Positions 5,052-52,022 of a DNA stretch of 52,022 bases are shown here, piece by piece (the stretch's first letter is position 1; every line of letters begins with the position of its first letter). Origin of the DNA: an uncultured Planctomycetota bacterium (GTDB taxonomy: Bacteria > Planctomycetota > Brocadiia > CAIUPP01); the NCBI GenBank assembly GCA_903901045.1, contig CAIUPP010000124.1:1-52022 (forward strand), given 5' to 3'. A program made the translations under genes and the position numbers. The notes beneath the pieces are model-generated. The model saw nothing but the letters and a program-made list of their open reading frames with translations. It had not been told where the DNA came from and searched no databases.

Positions 5052-5192
5052 GTCATTGCGAGGCCGAGCGCAGTGAAGGCCGTGGCAATCTTCAAGTTTT
5101 CCGTTGCCGTTTGTCGCGGCAAGGGACGGCTACGGAAATAAGGAAGATTGCCGCGTCGTTCCCCGCGTTGCGGGGGAACTCCTCGCAATGAC
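5052..5192. repeat. Palindromic element bounded by GTCATTGCGAGG arms
   Basis: The outer arms GTCATTGCGAGG (5052-5063) and CCTCGCAATGAC (5181-5192) are perfect inverses. Nested inside are GGCAATCTT (5084-5092) and AAGATTGCC (5144-5152). Other members of the family are at 18418, 26598-26727, 32023-32122 and, degenerate, 34637-34790. The element sits between mcsB and clpC and would form a cruciform or a long RNA hairpin. The rest of the 326-base gap holds a GGCGGGCTTTAGCCCGCC hairpin near 5276 and a TATACT -10-like box at 5242-5247. Confidence 0.8.
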
Positions 5193-9930: not shown

Positions 9931-9968
9931 GAACCTTGCGAAAGTCTTTACCGGCCTTCGCAAGGTTC
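9931..9968. repeat. GAACCTTGCG / CGCAAGGTTC hairpin element
   Basis: GAACCTTGCG at 9931-9940 pairs with CGCAAGGTTC at 9959-9968 and can form a stem-loop. Two further members lie downstream of fusA (34494-34529 and 34563-34598). Here it lies between the convergent EEP and oxidoreductase genes and may act as a bidirectional terminator. Bases 9970-10064 show nothing else. Confidence 0.65.
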
Positions 9969-13934: not shown

Positions 13935-14051
13935 GGGCTGTTGAAAAACCCTGCGAACGCACCTTCTCGCAAGATCAATGGGTAAATGGCGCGGGCTTCG
14001 CGGTCTGCACACGCGGGTTTGATAACCCGCGCTACACTTTTTCAACAGCCC
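13935..14051. repeat. MITE-like element with GGGCTGTTGAAAAA terminal inverted repeats
   Basis: GGGCTGTTGAAAAA (13935-13948) and TTTTTCAACAGCCC (14038-14051) are perfect 14-bp inverses; total length is 117 bases. The interior carries a REP-type hairpin CGCGGGTTTGATAACCCGCG followed by CTACAC (14011-14037). It lies upstream of the lacI promoter on the other side. Confidence 0.75.
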
Positions 14052-14169
14052 CAACGTGTGGAATTGCTCGGCGCGATAGCCTATTCTCGCGGCGACGCCG
14101 GCAAGCCCCGTGCACCCCGGCCAAAGCGGGTGCTGCGCTCCTGCTCAAGACCGCGCGTGGCGCCTGAGT

Positions 14170-14197
14170 TTGAAAACCCCCGCGCACTCGGTACAAT
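14170..14197 (+). promoter_or_regulatory. Putative promoter of the small CxxC-protein gene
   Basis: TTGAAA (14170-14175), 16-base spacer, TACAAT (14192-14197), 38 bases before the start codon. The -10 and leader are copied in the relic at 9810-9913, which supports this being a unit. Confidence 0.5.
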
Positions 14198-14235
14198 GCA
14201 TCGGAAGGTGAAATCGCTTTTCTGAGGATGTCCCC

Positions 14236-14478
14236 ATGGCCGAAAAGGCCGACCGCCCCGACGCACCGGCTGATCCTCTCCCGCAGGAAGCAGTCCCGCC
14301 GCAGGCCATCCCGCAGATTGACAGCGCCTCCTTTCTGCGCTGCGCCGGATGCCGCCACGCCAAGGGGGTGGACATCGCCGCCGGTACGCTGCTGTGCGAC
14401 AAGCACAACATGCACGTCAACGCCGAGCAGGACGAAATCCCGGACGACTGCGTGGAACATGAGCCGACAGCGGGATAG
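14236..14478 (+). CDS. Small Cys-rich protein, unknown function
   Basis: An 80-residue soluble protein with a Pro/Asp-rich N-terminal tail (about 1-32) and a compact Cys motif: CAGC at 36-39, a third Cys at 54 (LLCDKH) and a fourth at 72 (DDC), plus several His. The pattern CxxC-x14-C-x17-C suggests one zinc or iron-sulfur site. I do not recognise the family by name. The start follows CTGAGGATG with modest spacing. The last 11 codons lie in the first unit of a 110-bp tandem duplication, so a fragment of its 3' end is repeated downstream. A relic of its 5' end lies at 9810-9913. Confidence 0.6.
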   Translation: MAEKADRPDAPADPLPQEAVPPQAIPQIDSASFLRCAGCRHAKGVDIAAGTLLCDKHNMHVNAEQDEIPDDCVEHEPTAG

Positions 14479-14667
14479 CCGGCGAACCGTGTAGCGCGGG
14501 CTTCAGCCCGCGATCATCGTGCGTTCTTTCCATTGACAAAACAACCGCGGGCTAAAGCTGCGTGGAACACGAGCCGACAGCGGGATAGCCGGCGAACCGT
14601 GTAGCGCGGGCTTCAGCCCGCGATCATCGTGCGTTCTTTCCATTGACAAAACAACCGCGGGCTAAAG
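14448..14667. repeat. 110-bp tandem duplication (two units, one visible mismatch)
   Basis: Unit 1 is 14448-14557 and unit 2 is 14558-14667. They differ at 14460 (T) versus 14570 (C). Each unit holds the 3' end of the small Cys-rich gene plus most of a 79-bp REPIN-like element. The near identity suggests a recent event. Confidence 0.9.
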
Positions 14668-14678
14668 CCCGCGCTACA
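14600..14678. repeat. 79-bp double-hairpin (REPIN-like) element
   Basis: It is bounded by TGTAGCGCGGG (14600-14610) and CCCGCGCTACA (14668-14678). The inner REP hairpins are GCGGGCTTCAGCCCGC and GCGGGCTAAAGCCCGC. Two more copies of exactly 79 bases lie at 47949-48027 and 48043-48121. A copy truncated by the tandem duplication starts at 14490. Confidence 0.85.
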
Positions 14679-15142: not shown

Positions 15143-18100
15143 ATGTTTCGCCCCATTGACAAGAACTTCGACATGGTCGCCTCCGAGCATGAAATGCTCA
15201 AGTTCTGGGAGGAGAGCGACGCGTTCAACAAGCTCCGCGCGCAGAACGCCGGCAAGCCCAAGTGGTCCTTCCTGGACGGCCCCATCACCGCCAACAACCC
15301 GATGGGCGTCCACCACGCCTGGGGGCGAACGCTCAAGGACTGCTACCAGCGCTACCACGCCATGACCGGCCACGAGTTGCGCTACCAGAACGGCTTCGAC
15401 TGTCAGGGGCTGTGGGTCGAGGTGGAGGTGGAGAAGGAGTTCGGCTTCAAGGACAAGCGGCAGATCGAGGAGTTCGGGCTGGAGAAATTCATCCTCGCTT
15501 GCAAGGCGCGGGTGAACAAGTACGCGAAGGTGCAGACGGCACAATCCGTCCGCCTCGGCTACTGGATGGATTGGGACCGCGACGAGGACTGGCAGAAGGA
15601 GCCCGGCCAGCGCCGCAGCTACTTCACGATGGCGGATGAGAACAATTACACCATCTGGTCTTTCCTGAAGAAGTGCCATGAGCGCGGGCTGATCTACAAA
15701 GGGCTGGACGCCATGCCCTGGTGCCCGCGCTGCGGCACCGGCATCTCCGAGCAGGAGCGCCGCGTGGGGTACAAGAAGATCACCGACACCGCTGTGTACA
15801 TCAAGCTGCCGCTGCACGGGCGCGAGAAGGAGTTCCTGCTGGTCTGGACCACCACCCCCTGGACGCTCGCGGCGAACGTCGCCTGTGCCGTCCATCCCGA
15901 GCTGACCTACGTGAAGGCCCGGCAGGGGGAGGAGACGTTCTACGTCGTGCGCGAACGCGCCCACGTCCTCAAAGAACGCGGACCGTTTGAGATCGTCCAG
16001 GAGTTCCCCGGCAGCCATCTGCTCGGCCTGACGTACGACGGCCCGTTCGACGACCTGCCCGTTCCCTCGCAGACCACCAAGGCGCACAAGATCATCCCGT
16101 GGACGGAGATCACCGCCGGCGACGGCACCGGCATCGTCCATATCGCTCCCGGCTGCGGCAAGGAGGACTTCGACCTCTCCAAGGAACTGCGTCTGCCGCT
16201 GATTGCGCCGATCGACGACGCCGGAATCTACAAGGAGGGCTTCGGCTTCCTCACCGGCCAGTACGCGGGCAAAGTCGCCGACCTCGTGCTCGACGAACTG
16301 CGCAAGCGCGGCGTCTACTACAAGAAAGAGAACTACGAGCACGACTACCCCCATTGCTGGCGCTGTTCCACGCAATTGCTCTTCCGCTCCGTGGATGAAT
16401 GGTACATCTCCATGTCCTGGCGCGAAGAGATCATGGAGAACGTCCAGAAGATCCGCTGGATTCCCGACTACGGCAAGGACCTGGAGCTGGACTGGCTGGC
16501 CAACATGCACGACTGGATGATTAGCAAGAAGCGCTACTGGGGCCTGGCGCTGCCGATCTTCTCCTGCGAGTGCGGCTGGTTCGACGTGGTCGGCAGCCGG
16601 GAGGAACTCCAGGCGCGCGCGGTGGAGGGATGGAAGGAGTTCGACGGCCACAGCCCGCACCGCCCCTGGGTGGATGCCGTCAAGATCAAGTGTGGCAAGT
16701 GCGGCAAGCCGGCGGCGCGCATTCCCGACGTCGGCAACCCCTGGCTCGACGCCGGCATCGTCCCCTACTCCACCGTCCGCTACGGCACCGACCGCGGCTA
16801 CTGGAAGGACTGGGTCCCCGCCGACCTCGTGCTGGAGTGCTTCCCCGGCCAGTTCCGCAACTGGTTCTACGCGCTGCTTTCCATGAGCACCATGATGGAG
16901 GACATTCCCCCCTTCAAGAGGCTGCTGGGCCACGCCCTGGTGCGCGACGAGAACGGCGAGGAGATGCACAAGTCCAAAGGCAACGCCATCTGGTTCGACG
17001 AGGCCGCCGAGAAGATGGGCGTCGACGCCATGCGCTGGCTCTACTGCCGCCAGAACCCGGTCAACAACATGAACTTCGGCTACACGCTGGCCGAGCAGGT
17101 CAAGCGCAAGGTGTTCAACACCTGGTGGAACGTCTTCAGCTTCTTCGTCAGCTACGCGCGCACGGATGACTTCGACCCGCAGGCTCCCAAGGTGCCCTTT
17201 GCCGAACGGCAGGACCTCGACCGCTGGATTCTCAGCCGGCTGCAGGAGTTCCTGACCACGGCGAACAAGGGGCTGGCGGAGTTCGACGCCCCCTCCGTCA
17301 CCCGCGCCGCCGAGGAACTGATGGACGCGCTGAGCACCTGGTACGTGCGCCGCAGCCGCCGCCGTTTCTGGCGGCCCAAGGATGCCGCCGACCGGGACAA
17401 GCTGGCCGCCTACCAGACGCTGCACGAGGTGCTGATCGCCCTCACGCAGGCGCTGGCGCCCCTCGTGCCGTTCATCACGGAATATTACTACCAGCGGCTC
17501 GTGCGGGACGTGGAACCTTGTAGGGGCAAGGCATGCCTTGCCCCTACGCCGGATGGCGTGGCCGCGCGCGTTGAATCCGCCCCCATCAGCGTCCACCTCT
17601 GCGCTTACCCGCAGCCGGACCCGGCGCTGCACGACGAGAAACTCAGCCGCGAGATGGACGCCGCGATGCAGGTGGTCAGCGCCGCCCTCTCACTGCGCGA
17701 AACGCGCCAACTCCGCGTCCGCCAGCCGCTGCGCGAGATGGTGGTGGTGCCCGCCGATGCCTTCCAGTCCGGCGCGCTCAAGCGCTTCGAAGCGCACATC
17801 CTCGATGAGTTGAATATCAAGAAACTCACCGTCGCCACCGACCCCGCCGAGCTGGTGCAGTACCAGATCAAGCCCAACCTCAAGCTGCTGGGGCCGAAGT
17901 ACGGCAAGGAGGCGGGCAAGCTGCGGGAGTTGCTGTCGAAGATGGACCCCGCCGCCGTCGCGCGGCAGGTCGAAGGCAAACTCCCTGTGCGCCTCGAATC
18001 TGACGGTGCATCGTGGGAGCTGCTGCCGGAGGAAATCCTCGTCGAGCGCAAGGCCTCCGACAAGCTGGTGGTCAGCGAGGAGAAGGGGCTGCTGGTGGCG

Positions 18101-18417: not shown

Positions 18418-18518
18418 GTCATTGCGAGGTCCCGCCTTCGGCGGGGCCGTGGCAATCTTCAAGTCTTCCGTGGCCGTTGGTCCGTAACGGCAACGGCCGC
18501 ACGGAAAACCGGAGCGGA
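18418..18518. repeat. Half element of the GTCATTGCGAGG family
   Basis: GTCATTGCGAGG at 18418-18429 leads into GTGGCAATCTTCAAG (18449-18463), as in the element at 5052. The closing CCTCGCAATGAC arm is missing. It lies in the 143 bases between the convergent ends of ileS and the RCC1 gene. An inner CCGTGGCCGTTG/CAACGGCCGCACGG pairing could act as a terminator. Confidence 0.6.
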
Positions 18519-34493: not shown

Positions 34494-34598
34494 AACCTTG
34501 CGAAGGCTTGCTTAGCCCTTCGCAAGGTTCTTCATTTGGTAGCTAGCGCCACGTCGAATCCCGAACCTTGCGAAGGTAAGACGAACCTTCGCAAGGTC
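34494..34598. repeat. Two GAACCTTGCGAAGG hairpin elements
   Basis: The first is at 34494-34529 (AACCTTGCGAAGG .. CCTTCGCAAGGTT). The second is at 34563-34598 (GAACCTTGCGAAGG .. CCTTCGCAAGGTC). Both are near-perfect stem-loops downstream of fusA. A member lies at 9931-9968. Just before them, 34448-34475 has GATTACTGATTACTGATTTG, related to the GATTTCT words at 41179. Confidence 0.75.
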
Positions 34599-47948: not shown

Positions 47949-48121
47949 TGTAGCGCGGGCTTCAGCCCGCGTCCTTTATGAAATTGAAAGAACTCACAAT
48001 ACCGCGGGTTTGATAACCCGCGCTACACAGGTGAGCGCCGTATGTAGCGCGGGCTTCAGCCCGCGTCCCCCGCAAAATCGGAACAACTCACGATCCCGCG
48101 GGTTTGATAACCCGCGCTACA
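47949..48121. repeat. Two tandem 79-bp REPIN-like elements
   Basis: The copies are 47949-48027 and 48043-48121. Each is bounded by TGTAGCGCGGG and CCCGCGCTACA and holds the hairpins GCGGGCTTCAGCCCGC and CGCGGGTTTGATAACCCGCG. The central 25 or so bases differ more. A third partial copy (GTGGCGCGGCCTATAAGCCCGCG) follows at 48138-48160. Confidence 0.85.
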
Positions 48122-48188: not shown

Positions 48189-48211
48189 GTAGGGCAAGGC
48201 ATGCCTTGCCC
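48189..48211. repeat. Intergenic copy of the ileS palindrome
   Basis: The perfect 20-bp palindrome GGGCAAGGCATGCCTTGCCC (48192-48211) is preceded by GTA as in ileS. The rest of the gap up to 48327 holds nothing I recognise. Confidence 0.8.
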
Positions 48212-51509: not shown

Positions 51510-51648
51510 GACGATCGTTACGCAGCAAAGGGTTGCAACAACGTCGTTTTTGGCGGTTCGACTCCTGACGGGAGTAACATGCAGTGCCCATATCGAAAGT
51601 AAAACTTTCAGGCACCCTTCAGCAAGGAGGATCGCTTGTTGGCAAATC

Positions 51649-52022
51649 GGCGCAATCCACGCCTCCGTGCGGGAGGCGACACGCTGGCCCCGGAAGTGAC
51701 AAAAGCCGTTGACCGTTTCAATCCACGCCTCCGTGCGGGAGGCGACCTGATTCCGCGCTACGCCTACGGGGACGCCAACGTGTTTCAATCCACGCCTCCG
51801 TGCGGGAGGCGACCATGATGCAGATGGCCGCCGAGGATGGGATTCGGTTTCAATCCACGCCTCCGTGCGGGAGGCGACGCGACCGCGCCCGGGCTTTATT
51901 ACGTCCCCAAAGTTTCAATCCACGCCTCCGTGCGGGAGGCGACGACATACCGAGGTTGAGGGCCAGCCGGAACCAGGTTTCAATCCACGCCTCCGTGCGG
52001 GAGGCGACGCCATCGTCTGAGA
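51649..52022 (-). CRISPR. CRISPR array, type I-C repeat, leader-distal end (continues past the window)
   Basis: Six 32-bp repeats, in plus orientation GTTTCAATCCACGCCT.. ..GGGAGGCGAC, start at 51649, 51715, 51782, 51847, 51912 and 51977. Spacers are 34, 35, 33, 33 and 33 bases, plus a partial one from 52009. The internal GCCTCC/GGAGGC stem and the ATTGAAAC end on the minus strand mark a type I-C repeat. The first copy (51649) has lost the GTTT end, the usual decay of the last, leader-distal repeat. Transcription is therefore expected leftwards, with the leader and probably cas genes to the right, beyond base 52022. Confidence 0.95.

Follow-up and report, generated by a model that had tools for sequence, protein, structure and literature searches.

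The only isoleucyl-tRNA synthetase (IleRS) gene of the genome analysed here carries a perfect 28-bp palindrome that is read as part of the protein, and this palindrome is most likely (probability roughly 0.88) a double-foot GTAG REP of the TnpAREP/RAYT subclass 2.4 kind that was inserted into ileS with the reading frame kept. Read this way, the gene is a clean case of mobile DNA turned into protein sequence for which the empty site is known, and such insertions are tied to a clade of RAYT transposases in which palindromes of this type occur within the transposase genes themselves. The features of the window (the whole 52,022-nucleotide stretch of DNA that was analysed) are listed in table 1.

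The host ORF is full-length, scores 687.7 bits against TIGR00392 (ileS, cut-off 621.4), contains the Pfam domains tRNA-synt_1, Anticodon_1 and DUF5915, and encodes the sole IleRS above the TIGR00392 cut-off in the assembly. An earlier sequence-only reading of the window had described the palindrome as perfect and as translated within ileS without a break in the frame, and both points were confirmed: GTAGGGGCAAGGCATGCCTTGCCCCTAC is translated as CRGKACLAP within the sequence ..RDVEP-CRGKACLAPT-PDGVAARVE-SAPIS... An alignment with IleRS proteins of relatives that lack the insert, proposed by the same reading, was carried out and 19 residues are absent from all relatives aligned (G001, G002, G003, and others). 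In G001, the closest relative searched (same family, IleRS 79% identical to that of the window), RDVDP joins AAPVSVHL directly and the insertion site is empty. The addition had been put at 10–14 residues, which agrees neither with the 19 codons of the insert nor with the roughly nine of them (28 of 57 bp) that the palindrome supplies. The rest of the insert past the palindrome matches no repeat in the sampled DNA, where a search by the first 14 bases of this segment returned no further copy. The insertion point follows the anticodon-binding domain and precedes the C-terminal part; it is probably a loop, since the sequence of PDB entry 8c8w also jumps here, from 766 to 770.

Table 1. Repeats, host gene and parts of the ileS insertion in the window (positions are those of the whole stretch).
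Feature	Position	Strand	Remarks
REP of a different stem type, GTAG-CGCGGGTTATCAAACCCGCG	14012-14035	-	Stem recurs at the end of the L070 RAYT gene
Three REPs, GTAG-CGCGGGCTT[CT]AGCCCGCG type	14491-14512; 14601-14622; 14656-14677	+; +; -	Stem recurs near the L086 RAYT
ileS, isoleucyl-tRNA synthetase, 1079 aa	15143-18382	+	Host gene of the insertion; TIGR00392, Pfam
Net in-frame insert, 19 codons/57 bp, CRGKACLAPTPDGVAARVE	17519-17575	+	Protein and codon alignments with G001, G002, G003 and others
Double-foot GTAG REP, perfect 28-bp palindrome GTAGGGGCAAGGCATGCCTTGCCCCTAC	17520-17547	.	Arms 14+14 nt, 100% complementary, no spacer
GTAG foot	17520-17523	+	Foot conserved among oriented copies
Palindromic core GGGCAAGGCATGCCTTGCCC, 20 nt	17524-17543	.	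123 genomic copies within 3 mismatches
Second GTAG foot (CTAC on +)	17544-17547	-	11/54 exact copies two-footed
Rest of the insert past the palindrome, 28 bp	17548-17575	+	Matches no repeat in sampled DNA
Four REPs, CGCGGG types, alternating orientation	47950-47971; 48003-48026; 48044-48065; 48097-48120	+; -; +; -	
Single-foot intergenic copy	48189-48211	+	Foot and core overlap by one base; core at 48192-48211; no coding frame across

The core GGGCAAGGCATGCCTTGCCC was searched in the 4.77 Mb genome (a draft assembly of 154 contigs, 94% complete), where it occurs in the 123 copies of table 1 compared with 1 match for a reversed control pattern; the palindrome is therefore a dispersed element, as the sequence-only reading had proposed from the shorter intergenic copy near the end of the window, which was verified as the 20-nt core with a GTAG foot. 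For the anatomy and the coding context of the copies, 572 kb of sequence sampled around them was used. What is conserved among the sampled copies has a direction: it starts with the GTAG foot, runs through the 20-nt hairpin and ends where the hairpin ends on its 3' side; the flanking DNA is unrelated between copies and the conserved part spans only 24–28 bp. In oriented copies the foot is conserved at 98% (G), 88% (T), 100% (A) and 100% (G), the last three positions being partly selected for. Long hairpins here have GTAG as their foot far more often than any other foot, and GTAG is also shared by the sister stems GGGCGCAGCATGCTGCGCCC, CGCGGGCTTCAGCCCGCG and CGCGGGTTATCAAACCCGCG. The stem of the REP measures 10 bp and its foot is GTAG. 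Feet on both sides are found in 11 of the 54 exact copies, the ileS copy included, and most copies are single-footed, so that the 28-mer that had been taken as the element describes the ileS copy and the two-footed form only. On single-stranded DNA the ileS palindrome folds into a 12-bp hairpin (-14.1 kcal/mol, z -4.84). Near a contig end, three exact GGGCAAGG cores follow each other at a spacing of exactly 177 bp (L074:149-522), which suggests that a longer unit is tandemly repeated there.

The window contains several other repeats. Just upstream of ileS (14448-14667) there is a near-perfect 110-bp tandem duplication (99%) with one GTAG-CGCGGGCTTCAGCCCGCG REP per unit, and a 38-nt repeat (GGCCGTGGCAATCTTCAAGT..., 92% alike) is found at 5078-5115 and, just after ileS, at 18445-18482. 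A second kind of hairpin, made of AACCTTGCGAAGG and its reverse complement, occurs at 9931-9968, 34494-34529 and 34564-34598, and seven AACCTTGCGAAGG half-sites lie in the window within 2 mismatches (1.2 expected). The window ends in a CRISPR-like array (51648-52015) of at least 6 repeats GTTTCAATCCACGCCTCCGTGCGGGAGGCGAC with a spacing of 65–67 bp.

Two frames of the palindrome are stop-free (CRGKACLAP or VGARHALPL) and the TAG of the feet lies in the third. Copies were called intragenic with a dicodon score for which long ORFs were the training set, and the coding frame had to continue on both sides. This count by coding frame, which had also been proposed, placed 10 of the 53 scorable exact copies (about a fifth of the sampled copies) inside genes and about four fifths outside coding frames. 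All intragenic copies are in the two TAG-free frames, an outcome that the method's demand for an open frame favours. The dicodon score may pick the wrong strand: in L067 the true host gene is on the opposite strand in the same phase. Hosts named by Pfam include MnmA, DUF2400, an aminotransferase, a permease and an FeS/NuoB-like protein, together with a radical-SAM protein whose copy falls slightly under the dicodon score threshold. Empty sites were identified in relatives for mnmA, the aminotransferase and the FeS gene, and the lengths of the inserts vary between host genes (about +10 codons in mnmA, +19 in ileS, about +25 in the aminotransferase and +33 in the FeS gene). The ileS insertion therefore has several counterparts, and the inserts differ in the length they add. 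The two stop-free translations of the REP are a suggested cause for the occurrence of CRGKACLAP and VGARHALPL in unrelated proteins.

A search of 294 genomes of the phylum with the free-stem pattern GTAGGGGC-NNNN-CATG-NNNN-GCCC identified 28 genomes that carry it, with a patchy distribution and compensated changes in the stem; the pattern is absent from many of the genomes searched. At least 96 stretches contain the exact 24-mer of the window; they come from MAGs that span more than ten phyla and are labelled Chloroflexi, Bacteroidetes, Planctomycetota (among them SOJX01000087.1), Omnitrophota, Nitrospirae, Deinococcales, Cyanobacteria (Coleofasciculus), FCPU426, Zixibacteria, Verrucomicrobiales, CPR groups and others. 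Mis-binning may lengthen this list but is unlikely to account for all of it. A search of the literature with the palindromes as strings gave no match. A tentative and rather doubtful interpretation is that the stem GTAG-GGGCAAGGCATGCCTTGCCC has spread across more than ten phyla and was amplified in a genome without a matching transposase, either as an orphan population or driven by RAYTs of other subclasses, with about a fifth of the copies now translated in housekeeping proteins.

Palindrome-rich genomes contain a RAYT clade, referred to as A1 and recognised by alignment, with the motifs HRRSIRLKxYDYS...PNHVHGI...WQ...YIINNP. In most of the closest A1 members, a GTAG palindrome follows the HUH motif at a short distance and in frame, and related palindromes often flank the gene; more distant A1 members tend to be without the inner palindrome. 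The A1 clade is present in 17 of the 28 palindrome-bearing genomes compared with 38 of the 266 others (Fisher p = 1.9e-7, with shared ancestry ignored). The exact ileS stem was found inside three RAYTs (L121, L143, and L194, from two Dysgonamonadaceae and one Helicobacteraceae MAG), of which the L121 RAYT shifts frame at its palindrome; as these three were found via the palindrome search, they show that the pairing exists, not how frequent it is. The motifs and in-gene REPs of the A1 clade fit TnpAREP subclass 2.4, a placement based on motifs and anatomy as described in PMC6006769 and not on a tree with its references. A RAYT with its own in-frame REP was considered as a novelty and dropped, as it has already been described there.

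The assembly of the window itself returned only distant RAYTs and no A1 RAYT at 1e-10, and the missing gene could reflect an assembly gap or a loss. The resident RAYTs in L053, L070 and L086 are each flanked by their own CGCGGG-type REP stem, and in L086 the GTAG-CGCGGGCTT[CT]AGCCCGCG stem occurs twice upstream of the RAYT ORF, at 23 and 70 bp; REPs of these types are also present in the window at 14012-14677 and 47950-48120. The suggestion that the resident RAYTs are flanked by the ileS-type palindrome was rejected, given that they pair with CGCGGG stems. The cognate enzyme of the ileS palindrome has therefore been lost, is unassembled or has been replaced by another.

In the preferred explanation, a non-autonomous REP would fold into a hairpin on single-stranded DNA and an HUH tyrosine transposase would presumably recognise, cut and join it via the GTAG foot and the stem. 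One copy would then have entered the ileS loop, and its persistence may be due to two features: the 57-bp insert does not shift the frame, and the TAG of the feet lies in a frame that is not read. We infer transposition by the subclass 2.4 clade from the known chemistry of TnpAREP (PMC8266576); the insert would be near-neutral and the genome would in the past have contained such a RAYT. Four points stand against this explanation: the 94%-complete assembly contains no A1 RAYT; the inserts are unequal in length, which blurs the limits of the inserted unit; the association between the A1 clade and the palindromes is uncorrected for common ancestry; and the placement in subclass 2.4 comes from motifs and anatomy instead of a tree.

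The first of these points also favours the alternative that the same REP was moved here by a resident RAYT of another subclass (L053, L070, or L086) instead of a lost subclass 2.4 enzyme, and the L053 RAYT ORF is 306 bp away from an imperfect copy, GTAG-GGGCAAGGCAATGCTTTGCCC. This alternative is considered unlikely, as the REPs flanking the residents are of the CGCGGG type, and the literature describes one REP family per TnpAREP (PMC6006769). Selection might also maintain the palindrome as a functional RNA or DNA element (a terminator, mRNA stabiliser or protein-binding site) instead of a passive mobile one. Such roles have been proposed for REPs (PMC3733652), the hairpin is stable and most sampled copies are outside coding frames, but no such role is apparent inside ileS and the other coding genes, the flanks are unrelated between copies and many genomes of the phylum do not have the pattern; this origin is very unlikely.

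Even less probable is that the palindrome is a Rickettsia-type palindromic element (RPE), or close kin of one, specialised for protein-coding genes. The sequence-only reading had drawn a comparison with RPEs, and its first half stands: RPEs insert in frame in protein-coding genes (PMC10969869), and the palindrome is likewise translated in frame inside ileS and several other housekeeping genes. The implied kinship gives way to a GTAG REP of RAYT/TnpAREP. The foot is GTAG, whereas RPE-4 and RPE-6 end in CGTC and are assigned to a separate CGTC super-family (PMC3733652), the unit measures 24–28 bp compared with about 150 bp, around four fifths of the sampled copies are outside coding frames, and this palindrome type is tied to RAYTs, a link that has not been shown for RPEs. 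A chance palindrome or an assembly artefact, for which only the draft state of the genome (154 contigs) speaks, can be practically dismissed, as the repeat is shorter than a sequencing read, the coding signal is kept to either side of the palindrome in ileS (40.8 and 29.5), the genome holds 123 copies, the 28-nt palindrome has 1 match in the window within 3 mismatches and 0 in 100 shuffles, and chance alone would give about 2e-4 perfect palindromes of 28 nt in the window (~52,000 x 4^-14, hand calculation).

The closest known systems support the assignment to the subclass 2.4 kind. TnpAREP/RAYT of subclass 2.4 are associated with canonical long and "double foot" REPs (Quentin et al. 2018, PMC6006769), and the double-foot form is likewise present in the ileS copy and 10 others of the 54 exact copies; Quentin et al. 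suggest that a double foot can arise via a central deletion of an inverted REP pair. Subclass 2.4 also displays flanking REPs and frame-keeping REP insertions in the tnpAREP gene between the HUH and Y motifs (PMC6006769), which is matched in other genomes by most A1-clade RAYTs, with REPs in frame after HUH and in the flanks. The present case differs in that the REPs are in unrelated housekeeping genes, including ileS, and that the host assembly is without a RAYT of the clade. GTAG REPs in general are short palindromes of 20–40 bp, one end of which carries an unpaired GTAG. They have been classified into 24 families and are mostly intergenic; some lie in frame within genes, and the hosts include tRNA synthetase genes (Di Nocera et al. 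2013, PMC3733652). The palindrome shares with families 1–24 the GTAG end, the short stem, the many copies, the coexistence of several families in one genome, and the intragenic in-frame copies with a tRNA synthetase gene among the hosts; the kind of element and intragenic REPs, those in tRNA synthetase genes included, are thus already described (PMC3733652).
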